Shown here in pieces: positions 425-26,700 of a stretch of 28,994 nt of DNA. Where the stretch lies: the IMG/VR virus record IMGVR_UViG_3300030101_001849, positions 1-28,994 of that record. One strand, written 5' to 3'. This stretch comes from a virus. Under the pieces are notes generated by a model. The model did no database searches. It was not told the origin of the DNA and worked only from the letters and a program-made list of their open reading frames with translations. Within the stretch, counting starts at the first letter, position 1. Each line of letters opens with the position of its first letter. The position numbers were made by a program, and so were the translations under genes.

Positions 425-1840
425 ATGGCAATAATTCCAGTAGGGCAAAAATTTCACACACTATCATCTAGTGTGGAAACAACTGACAGAGGATCGGCGG
501 AGTTTCAGTCTCAAAGAGAGATTTATACAATGCAAGACATCATTAATACTGTATCCGCAACCGGCGGATCAATTGATGGTTCGGGTGTACAATATGCACT
601 ACCGGTGTTTACAGACACCAACACTATAACTAATCTTGCGATAGGTACGGCAGGACAAGTATTAACTTCAAATGGCGCAGGAGCCAACCCTTCATTTCAA
701 ACATTAACAAGCACAGCTACACAGTTTGATGAAAGTTTTACAAATATTACATCTAGTTCAGATCCAAACAACTTAATAGGAAGGTTTGTTGTTTCACCAA
801 GCGCGCATCCTAATCTTGGAACTGTTTATCCATTAGACACTACTGTTCTCGGAAGCGAAATAGGCAATAATGGTTCTCTTGCAAATGGTTTTAGTGGTAA
901 AATATCAAATCTTAATGTTTTTCTTGGTCAGCAAATTATAAATAACATAACACCGGGTGTTGGAAGTTTTGTCGGGCCAATAAATCAAAGAAATAATATT
1001 ATAGGAAGTCAAATTTTAGACAACTACACAAGTAATGAATTTTCTTTTGCAACCGAAGCCAACATAATGGGTTTTAATATGCTGAGTGGATCGAGCCTTG
1101 CTTTTAGTGGCGGACTAGGTACTGGAGTTAGATATTCTACCATAATTGGTTCTGAATCCGGAAATCTTTTAACGGGCGGCGTAACCGGTTTTGAGCGTTG
1201 TGTTTGGATTGGCTATGAAATTGAAGGACAAGGGAGCACGGGTGGATTTAATGATCAAGTAATAATAGGCGCTAAAGCCTGTCAGTCAAATGGAGCCGCT
1301 CAAATTACTGTGGTTGGAGCACTGGCTGGTAATATCCCCCCTGGTGGAAATAGCACTTTGTTGGGATACAACGCACAACCCTCTGCATCTGGTGCATCTG
1401 ACGAATTTACTTTAGGAAATTCTTCAATTTCAGTTTTGAGATGTCAACAAACCTCTATTACATCATTGTCTGATGAAAGAGATAAAACAGATATAGTTGA
1501 TTTAGATAGCGGTTTAGATTTGATAACCTCATTAAAACCTCGCAAATTTGTTTGGGATATAAGAGAAGAAAAAATTGTTCAGACAAAAGAAGTAGTAGAT
1601 GATAAAACCGGAGAAATAACTAAAGTTGACGAAGAGATTGTTGTTCCAAATGCAAACAACGGGACTAAAGACGTCGGATTTATCGCTCAAGAACTCCAAA
1701 CTGTTGATGACGAATTTTTAAGATTAGTATATAGCGCTAATCCTGACAAGCTAGAGGCTAGCTACGGAAGATTAATTCCAGTGTTAGTAAAAGCTATTCA
1801 AGAATTAAAAGAACAACTAGACAATAAACAAGATAAATAA
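425..1840 (+). CDS. Tail fibre/spike with C-terminal peptidase S74 intramolecular chaperone
   Basis: This 471-aa protein has three parts. Residues 1-43 are an anchor-like segment (MAIIPVGQKFHTL ... REIYTMQDIINTV) shared with the next gene. The middle, about 50-345, is Gly/Asn/Ser-rich and repetitive in a beta-helix or YadA-head style (IGAKACQSN, LLGYNAQ, LGNSSISV). The C-terminus, from about 349, is a peptidase S74 chaperone domain: SDERDKTDI at 349-357 carries the candidate catalytic Ser349 and Lys354, GFIAQEL lies at 418-424, and a final helix ends LVKAIQELKEQL. In this family the domain trimerises the fibre and then cuts itself off just before the serine, so the mature fibre would be about 348 residues. 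Host-receptor binding is inferred. Confidence 0.88.
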   Translation: MAIIPVGQKFHTLSSSVETTDRGSAEFQSQREIYTMQDIINTVSATGGSIDGSGVQYALPVFTDTNTITNLAIGTAGQVLTSNGAGANPSFQTLTSTATQFDESFTNITSSSDPNNLIGRFVVSPSAHPNLGTVYPLDTTVLGSEIGNNGSLANGFSGKISNLNVFLGQQIINNITPGVGSFVGPINQRNNIIGSQILDNYTSNEFSFATEANIMGFNMLSGSSLAFSGGLGTGVRYSTIIGSESGNLLTGGVTGFERCVWIGYEIEGQGSTGGFNDQVIIGAKACQSNGAAQITVVGALAGNIPPGGNSTLLGYNAQPSASGASDEFTLGNSSISVLRCQQTSITSLSDERDKTDIVDLDSGLDLITSLKPRKFVWDIREEKIVQTKEVVDDKTGEITKVDEEIVVPNANNGTKDVGFIAQELQTVDDEFLRLVYSANPDKLEASYGRLIPVLVKAIQELKEQLDNKQDK

Positions 1841-1846
1841 TAAATC

Positions 1847-2800
1847 ATGGCACTAATTCCAGTAGGACAAAAATTTCATACATTAACTTCATCAACAGTT
1901 ACTTCAGACTTAGGATCGAGAAGAGCGAATAGCGGTAGAGAAATCTACACTATGCAAGATATTATTGACACTGTAGGGGATGACGGACTAAGTAAAATCT
2001 GGATTGTGATTCCAGACGGCGCTACTTTTTTATCTCCAGTGCCCACTACAAATATTATAAGGCTTGCTAACGAAACTAGTGTAAATGAATCTGCTATTAA
2101 AATTGGAGAAACAGTAGACTTCAAAGCTAGTCCATCCGGAACCGCTAATATAAATCAAATTAGATATTCTGAATTACAATTTTCTGGAGTTGCCTCAGGC
2201 GGCTTTCATCAATTGGTTAATTCTGAATTTAGGATTGATGTTGACAACGGCGGCGGCGGCGATATATTTACTGTAAGTCCATTAGTTTCTAGAGCTAGAT
2301 TGAGGGGAAGCGCTAACAAAGTAGTTAAAACAATGTATGGAGCATACTCAGGCGCTGAAGTAGAAGACAGTGGAACAACCACTGTAGACTTTCTTATAGG
2401 AGACACCAGTCATGTTGAAGTGTCAAACGCAAATGCAACTGTAGGTTTTGCGTATGGTCAATTTATTGACTGGAAGCTTACCGCAGCAGGGGCGACAGTA
2501 ACTGATGCGAGAAGTATATTTATTGATAGTGATGCAAGCGATGTTTCTACAATAACAACATATACAGGTATTCATCACGATGTAGGGCCAAACGGAGCAG
2601 CCACAAAATATTTCATTAACAATTTAATGAACGCTCCAATTAAAACGGCAGGTGGTATGACATTTAGTAATAGCTTACCTGCGCATGCAAATGACTCGGC
2701 AGCTGCTGCCGCTGGTTTAACAGCCGGTCAATTATATCAAACAGATGGAACTGCAGTTGCTCCATTAAATGCAGCAGGAATAGTAATGATAAAACAATAA
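1847..2800 (+). CDS. Tail fibre, second version with the shared N-terminal anchor
   Basis: This 317-aa protein begins with an anchor matching the preceding fibre at 31 of 43 positions (MALIPVGQKFHTL ... REIYTMQDIIDTV). After that the two diverge completely. The body is beta-rich with Asp/Asn/Gly turns and includes four consecutive glycines in DNGGGGD. It ends with an Ala-rich stretch DSAAAAAGLTAGQLYQTDGT at about 282-301 and IVMIKQ, a terminal peptide often seen in phage fibres. There is no S74 chaperone domain. The gene follows the S74 fibre after 6 bases. The likely role is an alternative or additional receptor-binding protein docked at the same site on the tail. The structural class is well supported; the receptor is unknown. 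Confidence 0.78.
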   Translation: MALIPVGQKFHTLTSSTVTSDLGSRRANSGREIYTMQDIIDTVGDDGLSKIWIVIPDGATFLSPVPTTNIIRLANETSVNESAIKIGETVDFKASPSGTANINQIRYSELQFSGVASGGFHQLVNSEFRIDVDNGGGGDIFTVSPLVSRARLRGSANKVVKTMYGAYSGAEVEDSGTTTVDFLIGDTSHVEVSNANATVGFAYGQFIDWKLTAAGATVTDARSIFIDSDASDVSTITTYTGIHHDVGPNGAATKYFINNLMNAPIKTAGGMTFSNSLPAHANDSAAAAAGLTAGQLYQTDGTAVAPLNAAGIVMIKQ

Positions 2801-2819
2801 TTTGTAAACATAAAAAAAT

Positions 2820-2885
2820 ATGTATAAATTTGACAAACCAGATGTACCGCCGGCGGCAGCAAATCCGCCCGGATTTCAAGATTAA
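2820..2885 (+). CDS. Possible 21-codon Pro/Ala-rich micro-gene
   Basis: A short frame, ATG to TAA, fills most of the gap between two real genes. It encodes 21 residues beginning MYKFDKPDVPP and ending AAANPPGFQD. It follows an A/T-rich leader (TTTGTAAACATAAAAAAAT), like other starts here. The codons are much richer in G+C than the neighbours, and the frame contains the perfect 10-base palindrome CCGCCGGCGG at 2848-2857. It could be a genuine small virion or regulatory peptide, or an untranslated element. I do not recognise a homologue. Confidence 0.35.
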   Translation: MYKFDKPDVPPAAANPPGFQD

Positions 2886-2905
2886 CTATAATTAAATAAA
2901 ATAAA

Positions 2906-3163
2906 ATGAGTGAACAATTAAGAAAAGTAAGTGAAGAACATTTAAGTAAACTTCAAGAATTAAACCAGAATTTTGCCAATCTTCATAAGCAAGTTGGAGA
3001 TTTAGAGGTAAGAAAACATCAAGTGCTGGGCGCTATAGATGGTCTTAGATCTGAATTCAAGTCTTTTGAAGCTGAGTTAATTAAAGAATACGGTGACAAC
3101 GTAGTTATTAATTTGGAAAGCGGCGAAATAAAAGACAAATCAGAAGATGGCGAAGATAAGTAA
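2906..3163 (+). CDS. Small coiled-coil protein (unknown role, tail-fibre cluster)
   Basis: This 85-aa protein is mostly one predicted coiled coil. Residues 5-62 have regularly spaced Leu/Val/Ile (LSKLQELNQNFANLHKQV, then VLGAIDGLRSEF). A short conserved-looking tail reads YGDNVVINLESGEI, followed by a Lys/Asp/Glu-rich end. There is no signal peptide, membrane segment or recognisable enzyme motif. Its last 17 bases overlap the start of the next fibre gene in another frame, which implies coupled translation. Small coiled-coil proteins in fibre clusters are often assembly helpers or minor structural subunits, but nothing here proves either. Confidence 0.75.
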   Translation: MSEQLRKVSEEHLSKLQELNQNFANLHKQVGDLEVRKHQVLGAIDGLRSEFKSFEAELIKEYGDNVVINLESGEIKDKSEDGEDK

Positions 3164-3695
3164 TATAACAGCATACCCTACAATTAGTAATCTAGATGGA
3201 AACGATTATTTAATTATAACAGATGCAAATAATTCATTAGCAACTAAAACCGTAACTCTTTCACAAATTCAAAGTTTTTTGGGGCTAGTTCCTGATTCTG
3301 CTGTAGTAGCAAATGTTTCTGTTAGTAGCGCAACTTTATTAACGTTAGCCACTACCCCGGCAACTCTAGTTGCAGCACCAGGTGCGAATAAAGTTCTTGA
3401 TATAGTAAGTATAATGTGTTATATGGATGCTGGTGGAACCGCATATGATTTTACACCAAATTTGCAAATAAAAATAGGCACTGAATCTATAGGCTCGATT
3501 TCAAATGGCAGTAACGCTATGAACTCAGCCGTAGACGCAACTTTCAAGCCTGAGACTCCTAATTCAACTACAGAAATTATAGCGCCAAACACCGCGTTAA
3601 CCCTACACGCTGGCGGAAGTAATCCCACACAGGGTACAGGGGTGTTGTTTGTAAATGTATTTTACAGGGTGTTAACTTTGGGTTCAAGCTTTTAG
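3147..3695 (+). CDS. Tail fibre / receptor-binding protein with APGAGK-type C-terminal domain
   Basis: This 182-aa protein has a short N-terminal module (MAKISNITAYPTISNLDGND ... VTLSQIQSFLG, residues 1-48). It resembles anchor modules I remember from phage fibres that begin with an NLDGND-type motif. The remainder is one beta domain with LVAAPGANKVLDI at about 77-89 and the ending VLFVNVFYRVLTLGSSF. It is the complete paralogue of the truncated gene at the left window edge, so it probably shows what that gene's missing front looks like. The start ATG at 3147 lies inside the end of the coiled-coil gene. It is probably a short fibre or adhesin; the function is inferred from domain type and position. 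Confidence 0.72.
   Translation: MAKISNITAYPTISNLDGNDYLIITDANNSLATKTVTLSQIQSFLGLVPDSAVVANVSVSSATLLTLATTPATLVAAPGANKVLDIVSIMCYMDAGGTAYDFTPNLQIKIGTESIGSISNGSNAMNSAVDATFKPETPNSTTEIIAPNTALTLHAGGSNPTQGTGVLFVNVFYRVLTLGSSF
3648..3680 (+). promoter_or_regulatory. Candidate Bacteroidota-type promoter (TTTG-N21-TAACTTTG)
   Basis: TTTG at 3648-3651 and TAACTTTG at 3673-3680 are 21 bases apart. This fits the Bacteroidota consensus of a TTTG/TTG -33 element and a TAnnTTTG -7 element. It lies in the last codons of the upstream fibre gene and ends 20 bases before the ATG at 3701. It could drive the unknown / GroES-like / terminase block. Because it lies in coding sequence, chance occurrence is possible. Confidence 0.45.
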
Positions 3696-3700
3696 TTAAA

Positions 3701-3925
3701 ATGGATATTAGGAAAATTTCAATAGGCGCTGACTATAAGTCAAGCTCTATGCATTACTTAGTAGGTCAGTCTATATTAAACGGAAGCTACACAATACATT
3801 TAATTCAACAAGATTTATCAAACAATTCAATAAAAATTTGGATCGAAAAAAATAATGAGGTATTATTATGGAAGGAATTTAATTCAAATATGCCAATAGC
3901 TATTGAATACAATATAAACTTTTAA
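3701..3925 (+). CDS. Conserved-looking small phage protein of unknown function
   Basis: This 74-aa protein begins MDIRKISIGADYKSSSMHYL and ends FNSNMPIAIEYNINF. It appears to be a compact alpha/beta protein with alternating hydrophobic residues and no membrane segment, signal peptide, cysteine pair or enzyme signature. It reads as a real gene: it follows the fibre gene by 5 bases, has a candidate promoter 20 bases upstream, and overlaps the next start by one base (TAATG). Its place between fibres and packaging genes suggests a small virion or assembly protein, but I cannot assign a family. Confidence 0.7.
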   Translation: MDIRKISIGADYKSSSMHYLVGQSILNGSYTIHLIQQDLSNNSIKIWIEKNNEVLLWKEFNSNMPIAIEYNINF

Positions 3926-4488
3926 TGAAGTCCCCACACTATTTTATTGTAAAACCTGTCAAGGGCAGAAGATATGATAATATAAAAAATATAGGAGGAA
4001 TTGATTTTTACACAAGTGTTTCTCAAGAAGATCATATCGCATCCAATAGATTTGCAGAGGTTGTCAGTTGTCCTTTAAATTATACCGGTGAAATACAAGT
4101 AGGTGATATATTGCTAGTACACCACAATGTATTTAAAATATATTATGACATGAAAGGTCGAGAAAAAAGCGGTAGAAGCTTTTTTAAAGATGATTTATTT
4201 TTTATTGATTATGATCAATTTTATATGTACTATCATAATGGTAAATGGCAAACACATTCTAAATATTGTTTTATAAAACCGGTTCCAGTAAGAAAATCAA
4301 TCATTATGAAGCCTGTTGAGGAAGAGCCTCTTGTGGGTATAATAAAATACACTAATCCAAAACTAACTGAATTAGGTGTAAAAGAAAATGATGAAGTGGT
4401 TTTTGAACCTGAATGTGAATATCCATTTTATATAAATGGAGAAAAGCTTTACAGAATGTTTTGGAATAACATAACAATGGTATTATGA
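3925..4488 (+). CDS. Putative phage co-chaperonin-like protein, two GroES-type folds in tandem
   Basis: The C-terminal part of this 187-aa protein (about 118-187) follows the order of GroES/Cpn10. A KPVEEEPLVGIIKY segment comes first, then LGVKENDEVVFEP, then NGEKLYRMFWNNITMVL, matching the family's 'G-x-V', 'VKxGDxVxF' and terminal 'Y-x-M-x-x-x-I-x-x-V/L' layout. The N-terminal part has a similar order (YFIVKPVKGRRYDN, GGIDF, FAEVVSCP, IQVGDILLVHHN), so two copies of the fold may be fused. Phage co-chaperonins such as T4 gp31 work with host GroEL to fold the capsid protein, a sensible role next to packaging and capsid genes. There is no search evidence; a fold-only relationship without chaperone activity is possible. 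It overlaps the next gene by ATGA. Confidence 0.5.
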   Translation: MKSPHYFIVKPVKGRRYDNIKNIGGIDFYTSVSQEDHIASNRFAEVVSCPLNYTGEIQVGDILLVHHNVFKIYYDMKGREKSGRSFFKDDLFFIDYDQFYMYYHNGKWQTHSKYCFIKPVPVRKSIIMKPVEEEPLVGIIKYTNPKLTELGVKENDEVVFEPECEYPFYINGEKLYRMFWNNITMVL

Positions 4489-4763
4489 AATCTTCAAAAG
4501 ATTTAAAGATAGAGATAATTAGCGCAGGTAGAGAAGCTGTAGCTCAACTAATCAAAGTTGCAAGGGAAGATATTATTAAGTATGACAAAGATGATGAGCT
4601 AGCAGCAGACAGATTAAAGAATGCAGCTGCTACAAAAAAACTAGCGATATTTGATGCATTTGAAATATTGACAAGAATAGAATTAGAAAAAGATTTGTTA
4701 AACGGAATTGAAAAAGTAGAAGAAAAATCAAGACAAGGATTTGCAGAAAGACGATCAAAATAA
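4485..4763 (+). CDS. Putative small terminase subunit or terminase-associated protein
   Basis: This 92-aa, almost entirely helical and charged protein contains IISAGREAVAQLIKVAREDI, DDELAADRLKNAAATKKLAI and an acidic/basic tail. Its position directly before the large terminase, with which it overlaps or nearly overlaps, and its size and helical character fit a small terminase subunit, which recognises phage DNA and regulates the packaging motor. I cannot see a clear helix-turn-helix, so the assignment rests mainly on context. The start overlaps the previous stop (ATGA), indicating translational coupling. Confidence 0.5.
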   Translation: MKSSKDLKIEIISAGREAVAQLIKVAREDIIKYDKDDELAADRLKNAAATKKLAIFDAFEILTRIELEKDLLNGIEKVEEKSRQGFAERRSK

Positions 4764-6987
4764 ATTATATAGTGTTGTAAAAAACCACGTGTCAAGACAG
4801 TCTATGTTGAAAATGAATCAGCACAAATCTTGGCAATATGGTTACAACCCCAAACATGATTTAGTGGTAATAAGTAAAGACGGAACAGTAGGGGAAATAT
4901 ATAATATCAATGGCTTACTAATAGGTTTGCCTAAAGCTCCTAAAACAATACACAAAAATTCTAAAAAAACAACAGATCAATATTGGGTAGCTTCGGAATA
5001 TCCAAAAGCCTTATCAAGAATTAGCTCGATATTTCAATGGCATGAAATGACTACAGAGTTTAAAAATGAATGGGTTGATTACATTGAAGCAGAATTTGAT
5101 AGAAGAGAGGAGGGATATTGGTTTTACAACAACGGAACACCCATTTATATTACCGGTACCCATTACATGTATTTGCAGTGGACAAAAATTGATATTGGTA
5201 AGCCGGAGTTTAGAGAGGCTAACAGAATATTTTATATTTTTTGGGAAGCATGTAAGGCTGATAAAAGAAGTTTTGGAATGTGTTATTTAAAAATAAGACG
5301 TTCAGGTTTTTCATTTATGGGTTCATGTGAGGCCGTTAACACCGCTACAATTAGCAAGGACGCAAGAGTAGGTATACTTTCTAAAACAGGATCCGATGCT
5401 AAAAAAATGTTTACAGATAAAGTTGTACCAATATCAAACAATTATCCCTTCTTTTTTAAGCCTATACAAGACGGTATGGATAGACCAAAAACCGAACTAG
5501 CATATAGAGTTCCTGCATCTAAGATTACAAAAAAAAATATGTTTAAAACTGAAGAGGAGGAGCTAGAGGGATTAGATACAACTATAGACTGGAAAAACAC
5601 GGCGGATAATAGTTATGATGGTGAAAAATTAAAATTATTAATACACGACGAATCAGGTAAATGGCTAAAGCCAGACAATATTATTAACAATTGGAATGTA
5701 ACAAAAACCTGTTTGAGGTTGGGTAGTAAAATTATAGGCAAATGCATGATGGGATCTACGTCAAATGCGCTTGACAAAGGTGGTGAAAATTTTAAGAAAT
5801 TATTTTATGATTCTGATGTAAAAAATAGAAATCAAAACGGTCAAACAAAAAGTGGGCTGTATAATTTGTTTGTTCCAATGGAATGGAACTTTGAGGGGTA
5901 TATAGATAAATACGGCATGCCAGTTTTTAAGACGCCAACAAAAGCAGTAGAAGGATCTGATGGTGAGCTTATATACCAAGGCGCTATTGATTATTGGGAA
6001 AACGAAGTAGATTCTTTAAAAAAAGATGCAGATGTACTAAATGAATTTTACAGACAATTTCCCAGAACAGATTCTCACGCGTTTAGAGACGAGAGTAAAC
6101 AATCACTATTTAATTTGACTAAAATTTATCAGCAAATAGATTACAATGATTCTTTAATTAAAGAACATTATTTAACTAGAGGTAGGTTTAGTTGGAAAGA
6201 TGGTATAAAAGATTCAAAAGTAATATGGTCACCTGACACTAGAGGTAGGTTTTTAATATCATGGATACCTGAAAAAAATCTACAAAATTGCAGGGTTAAT
6301 CAAAATGGAAAGTATGCACCAGGTAACGAACACCTAGGAAGTTTTGGATGTGATTCATATGACATATCCGGAACGGTAGGCGGAGGTGGATCTAACGGTG
6401 CATTACACGGATTAACTAAATTTAACATGGATAACGCCCCAAGTAATGAATTTTTTTTAGAATATGTTGCTCGACCTCAAACTGCAGAATTATTTTTTGA
6501 AGATGTATTGATGGCTTGTGTTTTTTATGGAATGCCTATATTAGTAGAAAACAATAAGCCTAGGTTATTATATCATTTTAAAAATAGAGGTTACAGAAAA
6601 TATTGCATGAATCGACCAGACAAAATATACACTAAACTTTCTAAATCTGAGAGAGAGATAGGCGGTATACCTAATTCATCTGAAGATGTAAAACAAGCTC
6701 ACGCTACTGCAATTGAAAGCTATATTGAAAAATATGTAGGCATAGATATGGATGGTTCGTTTAGAGATAAATTAGATATAGGCACTATGCATTTTAATAG
6801 AACATTAGAGGACTGGGCTCGATTCAATATTAATAACAGAACTAAGTTTGACGCCACTATAAGCTCGGGATTAGCAATCATGGCAAATCAAAAGCACTTA
6901 TATACACCGCAAAAAAAAGAGTCAAAAATAAAGATTAACTTTGCAAGATATAATAATAAGGGATTATATAGCCAAATACGTACTTAA
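4741..6987 (+). CDS. Terminase large subunit (DNA-packaging ATPase/nuclease)
   Basis: This protein is up to 748 aa and is the motor that translocates and cuts DNA. Numbering is from the TTG at 4741. The ATPase part has a P-loop-position motif KIRRSGFSFMGS (184-195), a Walker B motif LLIHDES (299-305, D303/E304) and a coupling motif GSTSN (338-342). The C-terminal RNase H-like nuclease part has GCDSYD (536-541, D538/D541) and PILVENN, with E603 as a likely second acidic residue. The Walker A position lacks the usual lysine (GF in place of GK). The TTG start would overlap the small-subunit gene by 23 bases; the first in-frame ATG is at 4804, which would give 727 aa. Overall it resembles crAss-like phage terminases. 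The stop overlaps the portal start. Confidence 0.9.
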   Translation: MQKDDQNKLYSVVKNHVSRQSMLKMNQHKSWQYGYNPKHDLVVISKDGTVGEIYNINGLLIGLPKAPKTIHKNSKKTTDQYWVASEYPKALSRISSIFQWHEMTTEFKNEWVDYIEAEFDRREEGYWFYNNGTPIYITGTHYMYLQWTKIDIGKPEFREANRIFYIFWEACKADKRSFGMCYLKIRRSGFSFMGSCEAVNTATISKDARVGILSKTGSDAKKMFTDKVVPISNNYPFFFKPIQDGMDRPKTELAYRVPASKITKKNMFKTEEEELEGLDTTIDWKNTADNSYDGEKLKLLIHDESGKWLKPDNIINNWNVTKTCLRLGSKIIGKCMMGSTSNALDKGGENFKKLFYDSDVKNRNQNGQTKSGLYNLFVPMEWNFEGYIDKYGMPVFKTPTKAVEGSDGELIYQGAIDYWENEVDSLKKDADVLNEFYRQFPRTDSHAFRDESKQSLFNLTKIYQQIDYNDSLIKEHYLTRGRFSWKDGIKDSKVIWSPDTRGRFLISWIPEKNLQNCRVNQNGKYAPGNEHLGSFGCDSYDISGTVGGGGSNGALHGLTKFNMDNAPSNEFFLEYVARPQTAELFFEDVLMACVFYGMPILVENNKPRLLYHFKNRGYRKYCMNRPDKIYTKLSKSEREIGGIPNSSEDVKQAHATAIESYIEKYVGIDMDGSFRDKLDIGTMHFNRTLEDWARFNINNRTKFDATISSGLAIMANQKHLYTPQKKESKIKINFARYNNKGLYSQIRT

Positions 6988-9422
6988 TGGTAGATGTAAA
7001 AATTGATATAAACCCAGTTGGGTTTCCGGATTTATTTGTTTCTGACAATGAAAAAGATACAGTCGAGTACGGACTACAAATCGGACAAGCAATTCAATAC
7101 GAATGGTTTCGTAAAGATAGTAGCACGTGTAGGTTTTATTCTCAATGGAGAGACTATCACCGATTGAGACTGTATGCTAGGGGAGAACAATCAGTTCAAA
7201 AATACAAAAATGAATTAGCAATAGACGGTGATTTAAGTTATTTAAATTTAGATTGGACGCCCGTTCCGATTATACCAAAATTTGTAGATATTGTTGTAAA
7301 TGGAATGTCCGATAGACTTTTCAAAGTACAGGCATACGCTCAAGATGCGCTTTCAGCTGAAAACCGATCATCATTTCAAGATATGATAGAGGCAGATATG
7401 GTTGCCAAACCCATTCTTACTCAAATACAAAAAGGATTTGGTGTGAATCCATTTGCTACAGATCCAGATGAGCTACCAAACAATGATGAAGAATTAGCTT
7501 TATATATGCAGCTAAATTACAAACCTGGGATTGAGATAGCCGAAGAAGAAGCTATTAATACCATGTTTGAAGAAAATCATTATTCTCAAATAAGAAAAAG
7601 AGTAGACTACGATATTACTGTACTAGGCATTGGTATTACTAAACAATATTTTTTACCAGGTGAGGGTGTCAAAATAGATTACGTTGATCCTGCAAACGTG
7701 GTTTACAGCTATACAGAAGATCCGTATTTTAAGGATTGTTTTTATTGGGGCGAAATCAAAACTGTTCCGATGACAGAGCTGCCAAAAATAGATCCCACGC
7801 TAACAAACGATGATTTAAAAGAAATAGCCAAGTATAGTCAGGCTTGGTACGATTATTATAATGTAGCGCAGTTTTATGAAAATAGTATTTTTTATAGAGA
7901 TACTGCCACGCTATTGTATTTTAATTACAAAACTACAAACTCAATTGTATACAAAAAAAAGAAATTAGATGGCGGAGGCGCTAGGGTTATTGAAAAAGAC
8001 GATCAGTTTAATCCACCAGAAGAAATGATGGAAGAAGGAAACTTTGAAAAAGTTGAAAAGAAAATTGATGTTTGGTATGAAGGTGTTATGGTAATGGGTA
8101 CAAATATAATGCTTCAATGGAAGAAAATGGAAAATATGGTTAGACCGCAGTCTGCCTCACAGCATGCAATGCCTAACTATATTGCTTGTGCCCCAAGAAT
8201 GTATAAGGGAATTATTGAATCATTAGTTAGACGAATGATTACATTTGCTGATTTAATACAAATGACTCACTTGAAACTGCAACAAGTTATTGCGCGAACC
8301 GTACCAGATGGTGTATTTATTGATGCAGATGGATTAAATGAAGTAGATTTAGGCACAGGCAATGCCTATAATCCTGAAGATGCGTTAAGGTTGTATTTCC
8401 AAACTGGTAGTGTTGTAGGTAGAAGTTACACACAAGATGGTGAGTTTAACAACGCAAGAGTTCCAATTCAACAGCTTACAGCAACAAGCGGCCAAGGTAA
8501 AATTAATAGTTTGATTGGAACTTACAATCATTATATGGATATGCTTAGAAGCGTAACAGGTCTTAATGAGGCTAGAGATGGAACAAAGCCTGATCCATAC
8601 GCATTGGTTGGTGTACAGAAGTTAGCTGCTTTAAACTCTAATACTGCCACCAGACATATATTGCATGGTAGTTTATATATAACTCAAACAATAGCCGAAG
8701 CTTTATCTATTAGAATAGCCGATATATTACAGTACGCTGAATTCAAAGAGGAATTTAAAATGCAAATCGGTAAATACAATGTAGGTATACTAGAAGAAAT
8801 TAATGATTTATATATTTATGATTTTGGTATTTTTATTGAGGTGGCGCCTGATGAAGAAGAAAAAGCCCAGCTTGAACAAAACATTCAAATGGCTTTATCT
8901 AAAAATGATATTAACTTAGAAGATGCAATTGATATTAGAGAGTTAAAAAATATAAAACTAGCCAATCAATTATTAAAAGTAAAAAGACAAAAGAAACAAG
9001 AAAAAGATCAGCAGTTTGCAATGACGCAAAAACAAATGGATGCTCAAACAAAAATGCAGGTGCAACAAATGCAATCGGAACAAGAGGTGAGAAAAATACA
9101 AATGGAGGCTCAAGTTCAAATGCAAGCCAAACAAGCTGAAGTTGCTTTTGATATTGAAAGACTTAAAAATGAAGCAATGTTGAAGCGAGAATTGATGCAG
9201 GTAGAATTTGATTTTAACATGCAGTTAAAAGGCAGAGAAGAGCAAGCAATAGACAAAAGAGAAAAAGAAAGAGAAAAAGCTAAAAATAAACGAATCAGCC
9301 AAGCTAATACTGAACAATCTCAATTAATACAACAAAGAAAAAACAATTTACCTCCAATTAGTTTTGAGTCTAATGAAGATACTCTAGATGGCTTTGACTT
9401 AGCTGAATTTGAACCCAGATAA
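6987..9422 (+). CDS. Portal protein
   Basis: This 811-aa protein is expected to form the dodecameric ring at one capsid vertex through which DNA enters and leaves. It follows the terminase directly (TAATG overlap), the canonical position. Family-like segments are LRLYARGEQSVQKY near the N-terminus, LNLDWTPVPIIPKFVDIVV at about 85-103, and SVTGLNEARDGTKPDPYALV at about 522-541, which recalls portals of crAss-like phages. Residues about 649-782 form a long Gln/Met/Lys/Glu-rich coiled coil (QKQMDAQTKMQVQQMQSEQ and onward), likely the barrel or crown helix inside the capsid. The length is typical of large podovirus portals. Recognition is by pattern and synteny. Confidence 0.85.
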   Translation: MVDVKIDINPVGFPDLFVSDNEKDTVEYGLQIGQAIQYEWFRKDSSTCRFYSQWRDYHRLRLYARGEQSVQKYKNELAIDGDLSYLNLDWTPVPIIPKFVDIVVNGMSDRLFKVQAYAQDALSAENRSSFQDMIEADMVAKPILTQIQKGFGVNPFATDPDELPNNDEELALYMQLNYKPGIEIAEEEAINTMFEENHYSQIRKRVDYDITVLGIGITKQYFLPGEGVKIDYVDPANVVYSYTEDPYFKDCFYWGEIKTVPMTELPKIDPTLTNDDLKEIAKYSQAWYDYYNVAQFYENSIFYRDTATLLYFNYKTTNSIVYKKKKLDGGGARVIEKDDQFNPPEEMMEEGNFEKVEKKIDVWYEGVMVMGTNIMLQWKKMENMVRPQSASQHAMPNYIACAPRMYKGIIESLVRRMITFADLIQMTHLKLQQVIARTVPDGVFIDADGLNEVDLGTGNAYNPEDALRLYFQTGSVVGRSYTQDGEFNNARVPIQQLTATSGQGKINSLIGTYNHYMDMLRSVTGLNEARDGTKPDPYALVGVQKLAALNSNTATRHILHGSLYITQTIAEALSIRIADILQYAEFKEEFKMQIGKYNVGILEEINDLYIYDFGIFIEVAPDEEEKAQLEQNIQMALSKNDINLEDAIDIRELKNIKLANQLLKVKRQKKQEKDQQFAMTQKQMDAQTKMQVQQMQSEQEVRKIQMEAQVQMQAKQAEVAFDIERLKNEAMLKRELMQVEFDFNMQLKGREEQAIDKREKEREKAKNKRISQANTEQSQLIQQRKNNLPPISFESNEDTLDGFDLAEFEPR

Positions 9423-9967
9423 TGTTTGAAAATTTTAACATTGAAAAGTATAAAAAAATTTCTTTTCCTAAAGATAATTCTTTAAGAACACTAGGTGAAA
9501 TAAAAAGATTAAAATTAATGCCACTAAACAAAACGCTGCCATTTAAATATGATAATATAATGAATGTATTTCAAAATATTTTTTCATATAGAATTGAGTC
9601 TTTTCCATACCGACTAGTAGAAAAATTGTTAGACGAATCTGAGCCAATAATCAAAAAAATTAAAAATTATCACAATAGACCAAGGCCCAATGTTAATGCA
9701 AAAAATTTCAAAATTGACTTAGATTATTTAAAAATGAAAAGTGCTCAAACCCCAGCTTTTCCATCGGGGCACTCAGCACAATCAAAATTAGTAGCACTTG
9801 CGCTCACAAACATGTACCCACATTTAAAAAAAGATTTTGATAAAGCAGCTGAAAATATATCTAACAGCAGAATAGTTGCAAGAGTGCATTATGAGTCAGA
9901 TAAGGTGGTTGGTGAAAAACTTGGACAAGATCTTTATAACCATATAAAGGATCTTAAATATATTTAG
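9422..9967 (+). CDS. Soluble PAP2-superfamily phosphatase
   Basis: This 181-aa protein carries the full three-part catalytic signature of PAP2 / class A acid phosphatase / haloperoxidase proteins. Motif 1 (K-x6-RP) is K79-IKNYHN-R86-P87, with a second overlapping match K81...R88-P89. Motif 2 is P114-S-G-H117. Motif 3 (SR-x5-H-x3-D) is S149-R150-IVARV-H156-YES-D160. In the family H156 is the nucleophile and H117 the proton donor. No signal peptide or membrane spans are visible, so it looks like a soluble enzyme, unlike most lipid phosphatases. It sits between portal and scaffold with a one-base overlap to the portal, so it is co-expressed with capsid genes. The substrate is unknown: phospholipid, nucleotide or another phosphate ester. 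Confidence 0.85.
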   Translation: MFENFNIEKYKKISFPKDNSLRTLGEIKRLKLMPLNKTLPFKYDNIMNVFQNIFSYRIESFPYRLVEKLLDESEPIIKKIKNYHNRPRPNVNAKNFKIDLDYLKMKSAQTPAFPSGHSAQSKLVALALTNMYPHLKKDFDKAAENISNSRIVARVHYESDKVVGEKLGQDLYNHIKDLKYI

Positions 9968-20350: not shown

Positions 20351-21112
20351 ATGGGAGCAGTAACATTAACATATAGCGAAACTTCAAAAGGGTGGCCATC
20401 ATTCTATTCATTCATTCCTGAAAAAATGGTGGGTATGAATAACTATTTGTATTCATTTAAGGGGGGTAAATTGTACAGACACAACACAAACCCGAAAAGA
20501 AATAATTTTTATGACGTGCAACATAGTTCTACTATTTCGAGTATATTTAATATCAAACCATTAGAAGTTAAATTATTTAAAACAATTTATTTGGAGTCAG
20601 ATAGCGCCTGGGCAGCCACTTACAATTCAGACATGCATAATCCCGGTGGTAGTTTGTTAGCTTCTTACTTTGTTCAAAAAGAAACAGATTGGTTTTCTTT
20701 TTTAAGAGCAGATGAAAATACGGTTAACTTTAATTTAAGATCTGCGAATGGGTTAGGCGATGTGAGCAGTGTCGATTCAAGTGTGGCCGCAGCGGTTGTG
20801 CTTACATTTACATTTGACGTAGGATCAATTATTTCTATAGGAGACAAAGCATACCACGGGAACACACCTACCTTTGCGGGAGAGATAGTAGCAACAACAA
20901 CAAACACAATAACTATTAACACCACATCGGGTGGCTCAGTGCCTCCAGGTGGAGCATTTATTTGCTACATAAAAGATAGCGTAGCTGAATCACATGGGGT
21001 AAGAGGACATTACCTAGAATTTACATTAACTAATGGCCCTACTGAAAATCCAAATTCAGTTGCGGTCGAACTATTCGCCGTAAAAAGCAGTATGTTTAAA
21101 AGTTACCCTTAA
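20351..21112 (+). CDS. Accessory tail protein (hub-associated)
   Basis: This 253-aa protein opens with GWPSFYSFIPEKMVGMNNYL, then YSFKGGKLYRHNT and RNNFYDVQHSSTI. I remember this pattern from the gene after the stabilisation protein in many Bacteroidota podoviruses. The sequence is beta-rich with aromatic residues and contains a VGSIISIGDKAYHGNTPTFA-type beta stretch. There is no transmembrane segment. It follows the hub gene after 9 bases with an A-rich leader and is the last gene before a new -7 box. A tail-needle, nozzle or hub partner role fits the position, but the exact place in the virion is unknown. Confidence 0.6.
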   Translation: MGAVTLTYSETSKGWPSFYSFIPEKMVGMNNYLYSFKGGKLYRHNTNPKRNNFYDVQHSSTISSIFNIKPLEVKLFKTIYLESDSAWAATYNSDMHNPGGSLLASYFVQKETDWFSFLRADENTVNFNLRSANGLGDVSSVDSSVAAAVVLTFTFDVGSIISIGDKAYHGNTPTFAGEIVATTTNTITINTTSGGSVPPGGAFICYIKDSVAESHGVRGHYLEFTLTNGPTENPNSVAVELFAVKSSMFKSYP

Positions 21113-22027: not shown

Positions 22028-23758
22028 ATGGCACAAGACAATAGAACTTATTACAACCGTAGAGGAAACCAGTTTACAGGAATGTTTGATTCAGGCCCTG
22101 GAAGCGATTTTGTACCTGTAGATTGGGGTAAAATTACAGGGGATATTGTAAGCACGTTAAGATCTGTTGAGAAAGAAAGACAAGCTAAAAGGGATGACAT
22201 ACAAACCAAGACCGATGAGCTGCTTACAGACTTAAGAGATTATCAAGCTGGAGGCAACAATACATTTAATGGATATGTTTTAGACGGCTCCACTCAAGTA
22301 AAAGATTATATGTTAATGCAAAACAAATTATTAAAGCAGGGCAAGCTTGATCCTAATGCATATACAAGAAGTTCACAATTACTACAAGACGACTGGAATT
22401 CTTTTCAAGAAGCAGCTAAAACTTTTAATGCCGATTATGCTGCAGCGATAGAAGCGGTTAATGCAGGAGATGCTTCCAAATTAGCTTTGATGAGTTTTGA
22501 TGAAATGCAAGCAGCAACAGATATACAAAATAGTAGATTAGTAATAAATACTGATGGAAGATTATATTCTCAAACAGGAAATGGTAAGCTAGTAGGTTTT
22601 ACCAACATGAATGCAAGGCAAAAAGATTTACCAAAAAATTACAACATCGTAAATGGCGCTAAAGGTTTTTCGTCAACTTTGGGAAAATTTAAAGAGGCGT
22701 ATCCAAAAATGACAGTAGAAGATATTACTGCACAACCTGATTTTCTAAAGGCAAGAGATACTTATATTGAAGGAGTTTTAAATCAAGGAACAGGTAGAGA
22801 CTTCTTAAGTATATTAACACAAAACGGATACGAGCTAACTCAAGATCCAAATAAGGTAGACGACAACACCATACTGGTAAAAGCAGACTCAAATGGATTA
22901 CTACAACCAGATAAAGAATCTCTAGAAAAACATAGAGGGCGCGCCAAAGAAATACTGCAAGAAGCAATTAGTGTTCAGCTAGATTACCTTGAATCACCAG
23001 GTGGTACTGAAACATCAACTGACCAAGCAAATAATTCCAGACTACAAAAAATACAAAATGTATATGGTTATTTAGGGGATATTTTGTCAAACGACAAAGT
23101 AAAACGAGATAGAGCAAAACAATTTTTATTTCAAAATTATCAGGCAATTACCGGATTTGAATCGGATACTGAGGGAATTAGAATTACTACAAACACTGGC
23201 GATACACAAAAAATTACATGGGAAGATTTAAGTGGAGAAGGTGTGGCGAGTGTTAAAACTCCTGAACAAATTATAGATAGATTACTTCCAATAATTACCG
23301 GACAATTAGATAAAGACGAACTTGATAAAATTAAAAACAAATATTTAGCCAACCTAGATGAGCAGGGTAAGAAAAACTTTAGACTTCAATTTGGCAGAAA
23401 CGATGATTATGATATTAACGAGCAAAGAACTTCCGGAGACTTTGAGTTCCCAGAGGATGTACTTACTACTGTTAGCGAAAGTTTAACTGAGCTAGGTAAA
23501 ATACTTCCTGAAGCAAGAGAGGGTACAATACAAAAAGCAATTGCAAGAAATATCAATGATGCTCTTATTGGTGTAAGTGGAATTGGAGTAGAGGCTTCAG
23601 GACAAAACTTAATATTAAAATTACCTAATAACACAACTATAAATTTAGGTGATCCATTAGATTTAGGTGGCGCTGGACTTCTCAAAAGAATTCAAGATGA
23701 AATTAAAAGGTCAAAAACTGCTAAGCCACCTGCCTCTGGTGATCAAGGATTCGGATAA
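22028..23758 (+). CDS. Probable internal virion protein
   Basis: This 576-aa, soluble, charged and mainly helical protein begins MAQDNRTYYNRRGNQFTGMF and continues DFVPVDWGKITGDIVSTLRS, with long helical stretches (VKDYMLMQNKLLKQGKLDPN; SFQEAAKTFNADYAAAIEAV). The last third alternates helix and beta and ends GLLKRIQDEIKRSKTAKPPA with a disordered Gly/Pro tail. No enzyme motif is apparent and I see no lysozyme-like Glu/Asp pattern. It starts immediately after the preceding stop and its own stop overlaps the next start (TAATG). The three genes are therefore one translational unit, as in the gp14-gp15-gp16 ejection-protein clusters of podoviruses; by position it would be the middle member. Confidence 0.6.
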   Translation: MAQDNRTYYNRRGNQFTGMFDSGPGSDFVPVDWGKITGDIVSTLRSVEKERQAKRDDIQTKTDELLTDLRDYQAGGNNTFNGYVLDGSTQVKDYMLMQNKLLKQGKLDPNAYTRSSQLLQDDWNSFQEAAKTFNADYAAAIEAVNAGDASKLALMSFDEMQAATDIQNSRLVINTDGRLYSQTGNGKLVGFTNMNARQKDLPKNYNIVNGAKGFSSTLGKFKEAYPKMTVEDITAQPDFLKARDTYIEGVLNQGTGRDFLSILTQNGYELTQDPNKVDDNTILVKADSNGLLQPDKESLEKHRGRAKEILQEAISVQLDYLESPGGTETSTDQANNSRLQKIQNVYGYLGDILSNDKVKRDRAKQFLFQNYQAITGFESDTEGIRITTNTGDTQKITWEDLSGEGVASVKTPEQIIDRLLPIITGQLDKDELDKIKNKYLANLDEQGKKNFRLQFGRNDDYDINEQRTSGDFEFPEDVLTTVSESLTELGKILPEAREGTIQKAIARNINDALIGVSGIGVEASGQNLILKLPNNTTINLGDPLDLGGAGLLKRIQDEIKRSKTAKPPASGDQGFG

Positions 23759-26700
23759 TGAGCGAACAAATATTAAAAAATATATGGAATAACTTAACCC
23801 AAGCAGGGTTAACTACAAATGATTTTGAAGCATGGAACACCAACTTTCAATCAAATGAAGAAGTGCAAGCCAATGTTCATGAATATCTGACACGTCAACA
23901 ATTAACAACTAGTGATTTTTCAACTTGGTCAAACAATTTAGGTTTAAAAAAAAAAGACGAATCCGATTTTATTTCAGAAGAGGAAGTTACGGAATTGTCT
24001 ACACAGGAAGATCGAATCGCCGCTGGGCAATCGGCATCTTCAGTTCTTCCAACTCCAGAAGTTGAAGAAGTTACAGCTCTCAATGTAACTGAAAACATTA
24101 TTCCATTATCAGACGAGGAAGTTTCTAAAGGTGTGCTTTCAAATCAAGCTTCCAATCAAAATAATATTTTATATCAACAAGGCTATTATAATTTAAGTGA
24201 CGATCAAAAGAATAGTTTTGCCACTGCGGTTTTAAATGGAAGTACAAACCCTATAAACGACATGACTGATGTTCAGTTCCAAGGCGTTGATGTTTCAAAT
24301 TTAGTTGTGGACTACAAAACACCTATGGAACTTATTGAAGAAAATTTCACAGAAGATGGCGTAACTTTAAACGGAGTGTTCCATGCACCTGGCACAAAAG
24401 TTTATCAATTAGCAGAAAGCTTGATAGAGGATAAAAATATATCTAGAGGCAAACAAATAGATATAAATTCACCTACCTTAAATTATATTGCACCCCCTGG
24501 CTTAGATTTTTCTGAAGAAACCCTAGATGAATTAATAACTCAGTATGGTGCAGATATAGATGACAACACTCTTAGAAGAATGGGTGTAGATAAAAAAGAA
24601 TACATTGACTTTGTAAGAAAGAATTATAGAAAAGAAACGGGTGGATATAGATTTTTAAGAGCGATAGATAACTTTGGTCTTGGTAGATTTTTTGGTGAGG
24701 AAAATCAAATTAAAGCCAATGAGGTTCAAAGAAAAGCGAAAAGAGAAGAGGAGCAGTATCAAAGAGCAATGTTATTTAAAAAAAATAAACTTGAATCTCT
24801 TCTTAAAGATAAATCTTATTTAGAGGCACAATTAAAAAGAACAGAGGATCCGGCAGAATACAAAAGACTTCAAGCCGAAATAGATAAATATGATTCAATC
24901 ATTAACACCAACCTAGGTCAAATGATGAATTTAGATCAATACTTTCCGAATTACAAAGAGCATCTTTCAGCTGGAGGTACAGCACAAATTTTAAAAAAGA
25001 AAAGAGTTTATGATGCTGCTAGAGGAAATGCCGTGGATATATTTGGAGCACAAACCAGTGAAACTTTAAAAGAGGGTATCTACGGAATAGGAAATTTAGG
25101 TTTTGGAATTATAAACTACATACCTGAGTTAGCAGATGAATTTTTTTCAGTATTAGGTGGTGATAATAAAGGTATTTGGGCAGGGCTTAGTAAAAATATT
25201 AGAGATAATATGGAGGACTACAAAATGGGAGAAGAAGGCCAGGTAGAAAGAAAGCTAGTGCTTCAGGGAAAGCCTGTTGAATACAAGGGGGAGCTTTATA
25301 GAGTGGATGACAAAAGTAATGTGTATGATGAAAAAACCGGAGTAGAGATGACGGGTATTATTACTCCAACCGACTTAGATAATATTAGAAAAAATGCAGC
25401 AAATATACCCGATTCAGACTCTGGAACTGTTTGGGTGGGTAATTCTGCTATACCAAAGGTAGCTGGAGTTGCTAGTTACATGTACGGTTTAATTTATAGC
25501 GGCAGAATATTCAGCAATAAACTTCTAGGCTTAGGCATGAAGGGTAAAAAGGCTGGCTATGTAGGTATGGGGCTAGCATCATACACTGCTTCTATGACTA
25601 ACAATGTACAAAGCATCAAAGATGATTTAATGAAAAAAGGATTTACTGAACAAGAGGCTTTAGAAAGAGCCATGGTGTTTGGTCACACTATATCTACATT
25701 TGACGGATTATTTGCAGGACTAGCGGGTAGCAACCAAAAATTACTTACAGGTTTAGGCGGAGTAAGAAAACAGCTATACAATTTAATTATAAAAGATCCT
25801 AAAAAATTCAACAGCGCCGAGTTGAAAAGAAAAGCAAACGACTTGCTTAAAGAAAATTTTAGAGAAGTATTCATAGAAGAAATACCTGTATATCTTTCTG
25901 AAAAAGGAGTTAATTATTTAATGAACGAATATGTGGGGTCTGAAGTACGAGACGCTAAAGTTAGACGTGGAGAGATAGAGGAAGTTATGCTATTGACGGT
26001 GGGCGCAACTACAGGATTGGGCAGTAAACAGTTGTTTAGTAGTAAAGACCGAGCTCAAACTATAGATTACATATCACAAAACTTTACACAAGCAGACATA
26101 AAAAAACGCTTAGAGTCTTTGAGAAAAGAAGGATTGCTTGAAGAGAATCAAGCAGAAAATGTTTTTAATGAAATCTATAATATGAATGCTGCCAACAATC
26201 AAACGCAAGGCACTGTTCAAATGGCTGAAAATAAAGAGCCAATGGCTGATTTATTAAACAGGCGAAGAAAATTAATGGACAAAAGAAAAGGGTTAGAGGG
26301 GCCTTTAAAAGAAGATATAGACAAAGAAATAAGTGCAGTTGATAATCAAATAAGATTATTAGCCAATAAAGATAAAGAAGAAGTAGAACAAGAATATAAA
26401 AACCAAGAAGATGCCAGTACGAAGCAAAGCACAGTGGCGGAAACTAGCCAAGACGAATCCACAGTTACTCAAGAAGTGGCTGAAGGAGTATCCAGTGACA
26501 TACAGCAGCCTGCCAGCGAGACTGACACCCAAACCGAGGGTACAGTCGACACGACAACGCAAGAGGAAATAGATGACAATCAATATGCGTCAACTCCTTT
26601 CTTATTAAAAAGTCGACCAAAAACTGCAGACGAAGAAGTAGAACCACTCACAGGAAAAAAATTAGAAGCAGAAGAAAGACAGATTGAAAGAACAATAGAG

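Follow-up and report, generated by a model that had tools for sequence, protein, structure and literature searches.

Proteins that join an anchor to a swappable domain, their chaperone ends, and recombination motifs at the anchor end are already known, as the accessible parts of earlier reports document (PMC6872550, PMC10408124, PMC11414711). In the podovirus receptor-binding proteins of this anchor type (T7/K1F, Klebsiella KP32/KP34, and Escherichia coli tailspikes), the anchor spans approximately 140 to 300 residues, compared with 43 residues for the anchor described here, which we designate M1. Where the available sections of those reports describe a second receptor-binding protein, it uses a separate conserved peptide and not the same anchor, whereas the M1 anchor is common to two to five paralogues per genome (PMC6872550, PMC10408124). 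The branched tailspikes of the Ackermannviridae resemble the M1 arrays in having several receptor-binding genes per locus and exchangeable tip genes, and some of the spike genes are, as the M1 genes are, similar between phages at their 5' ends only; however, in the accessible portion of that report the spikes dock through domains of their own (XD and TD), whereas the M1 paralogues have one short module in common (PMC11414711).

A structural reference is provided by crAss001, a phage of related virion type (the window encodes a crassvirus muzzle domain) in which the head fibres gp21 and gp29 and the tail fibre gp22 bear N-terminal docking segments of 26 to 58 residues (residues 1 to 38, 1 to 58, and 1 to 26, respectively) and in which fibres dock in the tail hubs and in two kinds of hexon pocket. 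As far as the available text of that study extends, crAss001 has one gene per anchor (PMC10172136). Its anchors are without detectable sequence similarity to M1. The trimeric cement proteins of KHP30/KHP40, Pam1, and GP4, likewise from a partly available source (PMC9698820), may have a beta-sandwich in common with one of the M1-associated tips (tip 2), the scores being in the range of common folds.

Compared with these systems, what is new here is a very short anchor that as many as five paralogues, in tandem or close together, have in common; its subtypes are specific to the array slot, and different anchors draw on one pool of tips. Our literature searches, for which subscription papers were mostly outside reach, returned no description of the M1 anchor family. 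With these arrays, the modular design of an anchor plus a swappable tip also takes in crassvirus-like phages of Bacteroidota.

The window and its tandem anchor genes

The window, the whole stretch of DNA analysed, is an entire IMG/VR record of 28,994 bases and derives from a crassvirus-like podovirus. The large subunit of the terminase, which begins with TTG (4741 to 6987, + strand), matched the PHROG profile phrog_6681 with 617 bits and served as our yardstick of relatedness, and the portal matched phrog_6547. A protein with the crassvirus muzzle C-terminal domain (20351 to 21112, + strand; PF25729, 40.8 bits against a cut-off of 27) ties the virion type to the crAss001 structure. The closest GenBank terminase is that of MW202828 (72%), followed by Elemovirus (45%), and among the matches listed the Cellulophaga phage terminases are at 37 to 40%. 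A PAP2-superfamily phosphatase-like gene (9422 to 9967; PF01569, 38.5 bits, cut-off 27.2) separates the portal gene from the head gene that comes next; it has a counterpart in L014 and none in the annotation of L001 (L numbers denote related contigs and loci). A very long open reading frame (ORF) of at least 1,745 amino acids occupies positions 23758 to 28992 and extends past the contig end.

The M1 array is flanked by upstream genes on one side and by a fixed block on the other. This block comprises a conserved 85-amino-acid ORF (2906 to 3163, + strand; 86 to 100% identical in the close clade), which marks the 3' boundary of the array, then the M2 gene, a GroES-like gene with a small ORF on either side, and the terminase gene. 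The GroES-like co-chaperonin gene (3925 to 4488; phrog_13932, E value of 4.8e-19) lies just upstream of the terminase gene, and GroEL/GroES genes are also present in relatives.

The array contains ORF A (425 to 1840, + strand; 471 amino acids) and ORF B (1847 to 2800, + strand; 317 amino acids), for which the original prediction had described one shared anchor and unrelated distal parts. This description held. The first 43 residues are identical at 31 positions and the corresponding DNA at 84 of 129 nucleotides, with the differences distributed 14/9/22 over the three codon positions; past residue 45, the best local alignment score (37) is at the shuffled level (mean of 44 for whole-length shuffles), so the distal parts are without similarity. 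The anchor of A (codons 1 to 43; 425 to 553, + strand) is of the alpha subtype, and that of B (1847 to 1975, + strand) is of the beta subtype typical of the final array slot.

In A, the anchor is followed by a linker or stalk and, as predicted, by an S74 intramolecular chaperone (Peptidase_S74, residues 349 to 430; 1469 to 1714, + strand; PF13884, 38 bits against a curated cut-off of 22; E value of 2.1e-9). A Pfam scan of A and B returned this domain in A alone, no family in B, and T4gp10-like or XD adapter domains in neither. The tip of A belongs to cluster 0, the commonest M1 tip group, and A matches several PHROG tail-fibre families, although its top PHROG match falls in the head and packaging category. 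The tip of B (1976 to 2797, + strand) belongs to cluster 5 and is 90 to 96% identical in L005 to L007; B had a best PHROG match at chance level (E value of 0.19), tblastn found no match to its tip in named phages, and neither M1 nor A nor B had a credible match in a PDB sequence search. The S74 domain, a chaperone that assists folding and is normally released, is therefore not itself a receptor-binding tip. The Ala-rich terminus of B looks like an ordinary fibre C terminus, similar endings occur on other tips of the set (L050, L016, and L011), and presumably it resembles common fibre ends generally.

The two tandem copies first reported are real and are probably part of a set of three, the first of which is truncated at its anchor where the contig begins. 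This is indicated by a partial gene, preA (3 to 413, + strand), which begins at the anchor/tip boundary where the window itself begins and encodes tip 2, a predicted beta jelly-roll (the fold is taken from a predicted model of its L015 homologue). PreA is 95.7% identical over 463 nucleotides to a gene of L052 that starts 140 nucleotides further upstream and 91% identical to its counterpart in L015, and in both relatives 46 to 47 residues of M1 precede the tip. A second kind of anchor, M2, occupies the first ~45 codons of the gene at 3147 to 3695 (+ strand), ahead of a domain that resembles tip 2; at this position, a protein of ~640 amino acids is encoded in most close relatives. The M2 module is present in 70 records, mostly M1-bearing ones, with one or two copies in each. 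M1 and M2 may be homologous: they aligned in hhalign with a probability of 55%, colinearly over 40 columns, compared with at most 2.2% for the crAss001 N termini.

The M1 family and its tip pool

A profile of the M1 anchor found 139 genes in 78 records, a set that includes near-identical contigs, in which duplicate loci of single contigs had been merged via a hand-typed list, and which stands apart from loci L108 to L206. One copy was present in 35 records, two in 30, three in 10, four in one, and five in two. The 112 distinct full-length proteins, counting two short ORFs (L052, 152 amino acids; L095, 53 amino acids), formed 37 tip clusters (26 when any hit sufficed for linkage). The predicted duplicated N-terminal module with unrelated, exchangeable distal parts is supported. 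In Pfam and PHROG scans of A, B, and relatives, no model matched the anchor. Within one virion lineage, the module is conserved from phage to phage. Its 43 residues are easily searchable, flag surface proteins that would otherwise be unrecognisable, and define a tip pool across lineages. A pattern search of genome contigs yielded 36 pattern matches and no relatives, and hence no prophage evidence for M1.

A third anchor, M3, escapes the M1 profile and heads arrays of two to three genes in L110, L199, and L203 to L206 that parallel the M1 arrays; the portals of this lineage (L199 and L203) are at 51 to 52% to that of the window. Tip 10 was found behind both M1 and M2; tip 2 goes with these two anchors and also with other N termini. 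By sequence, the same tip families occur behind three anchor types.

Anchors follow phage ancestry. Across 44 contigs, after terminases (TerL) at 99.5% identity or above were collapsed and contigs without 200 amino acids of TerL were dropped, anchors were more alike where the TerL proteins were more alike (Mantel r = 0.43; P = 0.001). At 60 to 75% terminase identity, a shared tip did not raise anchor similarity (46% with a shared tip versus 48% without); among close relatives it did (78% versus 69%), which indicates that the decoupling of tip and anchor is incomplete. Anchors inside one contig (62%) are no more similar to each other than are anchors of close relatives.

Proposed docking of the anchor and display of the tips

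We consider it fairly probable that A and B are two of a tandem series of genes for surface appendages that share the ~43-residue M1 docking peptide and differ in an exchangeable distal module. M1, probably an extended strand with a short helix, would attach each protein to a virion site; the remainder of the protein would form the exchangeable module, and several tips would be displayed together and contact the host or the environment. That M1 is a docking plug is inferred by analogy with crAss001, and we do not claim membership in the crAss001 docking segments, since the M1 and M2 profiles had no significant match to crAss001 gp21 to gp26 and gp29 (probability of at most 2.2% in hhalign for the N termini). 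M1 also matched no PDB chain by sequence. An AlphaFold model of an M1 protein with tip 2 has an extended anchor, with low confidence (pLDDT of 54 to 73), one short helix at residues 36 to 42, and a well-folded tip; the model of B has a mean confidence of 54 and is unusable.

The M1 proteins could instead be head-docked capsid fibres or cement-like trimers whose tips stabilise or adorn the capsid and do not determine host choice, a possibility that we regard as real but less favoured. Tip 2 resembles the trimeric phage cements of KHP30 (Z of 7.3), Pam1 (6.7), KHP40 (6.6), and GP4 (6.4), yet these Z scores are all below 8, plant virus and polyomavirus capsids score alike, and the similarity may reflect the common jelly-roll only. 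The tip-2 profile also matches residues 136 to 266 of PDB chain 9eg4_H, named "orf16," with an E value of 6.6e-10 (seven chains of one entry), and the crAss001 head fibres have, in the available text, the N-terminal anchors of 38 and 58 residues (PMC10172136). Cultured Elemovirus isolates with different tips have one host in common, which would suit capsid decoration; on the other side, A, with its cluster 0 tip, matches the tail-fibre families mentioned above.

The distribution of anchor subtypes raises another alternative to a single type of docking site, namely, that alpha, beta, and M2 anchors read different pockets, so that each slot builds a separate appendage type. In the close clade (13 contigs with 29 genes, with the near-duplicates L009, L012, and L013 and contigs below 86% identity in the 85-amino-acid ORF left out), anchor subtype was concordant with array slot in 28 of 29 genes regardless of the tip, and tips were not. 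The last slot held a beta anchor in 12 of 13 contigs, and all 16 genes in other slots were of the alpha subtype (within-contig permutation, P = 0.00015). Only L018 departs from this pattern; the tip in its last slot is the same one that it shares with L110. The two hexon-pocket environments of crAss001, which the accessible text associates with different fibres, offer a precedent (PMC10172136). However, tip cluster 0 occupies slots 1, 2, and 3, the clade of L060, L063, and L067 is without the beta type, and plain orthology can yield slot tracking. We regard separate pockets as possible but less favoured.

A further step from the shared docking peptide, and one that we put forward tentatively, is that the two to five paralogues compete for identical sites, so that a particle shows a mixture of unrelated tips. 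If such mosaic virions exist, shuffling at the short plug would give distinct phage lineages access to one pool of tips, and slot-specific anchor subtypes would set the tip mix.

Exchange of tips at the anchor boundary

The original prediction proposed comparing related phages for recombination at the anchor boundary, and such recombination was found in a cassette, in anchor/tip pairs, and in cultured isolates. Nor are the tips fixed and always co-occurring: slots A and B carry differing tips in relatives whose terminases are 96 to 99% identical. Tips move as cassettes that extend from the YTMQDI codons to the stop codon. L018, of the M1 lineage, and L110, of the M3 lineage, have 1,432 nucleotides in common at 83.5% identity; this stretch starts at codon 34, ends slightly beyond the stop codon, and has lineage-specific DNA both upstream and downstream. 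The tip of B is 64% identical to one of L110, where it stands behind the unrelated M3 anchor, with no 25-mer in common. Three pairs of genes have kept the tip (98 to 100% DNA identity) and differ in anchor codons 1 to 34. Conversely, 18 pairs have kept the anchor (at least 95%) and changed tip cluster, although some of these include broken or short ORFs (L052 and L095) or tips that are alike just past the anchor (the L090 pairs); within L050, two genes are identical at 102 of 102 anchor nucleotides and have different tip clusters. In ORF A, the crossover zone (codons 34 to 43, YTMQDIINTV; 524 to 553, + strand) is where 32 sites that differ from L005 end, the last at nucleotide 529, followed by identity to nucleotide 1946.

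Tip variation also occurs in cultured phages. The Elemovirus isolates, for which the recorded host is Flavobacterium sp. BAL314, have two M1 genes, g1 and g2. When a 374-amino-acid g2 was compared with 68 Flavobacterium records, 62 matched at 99% or above and 6 at 95 to 99%, and among the matches listed four of these six align only over the first 118 residues of g2. The four isolates examined in detail have a g2 of 248 or 246 residues with other C termini; three alternative C termini occur behind ~135 shared residues. In isolate 3-5A, g1 has a different tip, of cluster 1 and up to 61% identical to contig tips, and retains 33 of 45 anchor residues. Since the isolates with differing tips were all recorded on one host strain, the swaps do not abolish growth on that strain, and the isolates would allow a direct test of the long-standing question of what the tips do. 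Tip exchange at a short plug probably helps the viruses to vary display or binding.

Metagenome assemblers might have switched strains within the conserved anchor and so produced false tip combinations, an explanation that we judge improbable for the data set as a whole. It does fit L017, which is of the M1 lineage for ~1,965 nucleotides and is then 99.96% identical to L110 over 4,803 nucleotides from YTMQDI; L017 may be two phage lineages joined by assembly error at an anchor at the contig end. The L017/L110 pair, with its near-identical tip behind different anchors, was accordingly dropped as evidence of a swap. The same worry applies to junctions with perfect identity, including that between the window and L005, and the window starts exactly at an anchor/tip boundary. 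On the other hand, L005 matches M1-lineage contigs for 5 kb upstream of its A gene (L007 at 87 to 91%). The case for tip movement rests instead on the L018/L110 cassette, whose two copies are no more than 83.5% identical and lie inside their contigs, on the 64% tip of B, and on the cultured isolates, for which metagenome chimerism is not an explanation; assembly artefacts thus cannot explain everything. Chance or convergence as the source of the similarity between A and B is refuted by their local alignment score of 158, a value that none of 500 shuffles of A approached (maximum of 78), and by the 139 family members.

The original prediction further proposed that the alternative tips might switch host range, which is disfavoured. 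The listed M1 copies of each locus share one orientation, most copies are intact, and searches for resolvase/invertase (PF00239), reverse transcriptase (PF00078), and tyrosine recombinase (PF00589) found none in eight long relatives, seven of which are possibly incomplete IMG/VR records. With no switching enzyme in these relatives, co-display of the tips is likelier than switching. Homologous recombination at the conserved ends of the anchors and at the starts of the following genes would shuffle the tips without a dedicated enzyme.

The repeated anchors may break or misjoin short-read assemblies. The reading frame is broken in the L018 gene that carries the cassette shared with L110, and the S74-type M1 genes of L018 (1801 to 3301) and L052 (2408 to 2866) have frames broken relative to those of relatives, with intact copies elsewhere. 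In L026, four M1 genes stand back to back (1288 to 3534), three of them with related tip-2 domains, and a fifth, of another anchor subtype, is found at position 8001.
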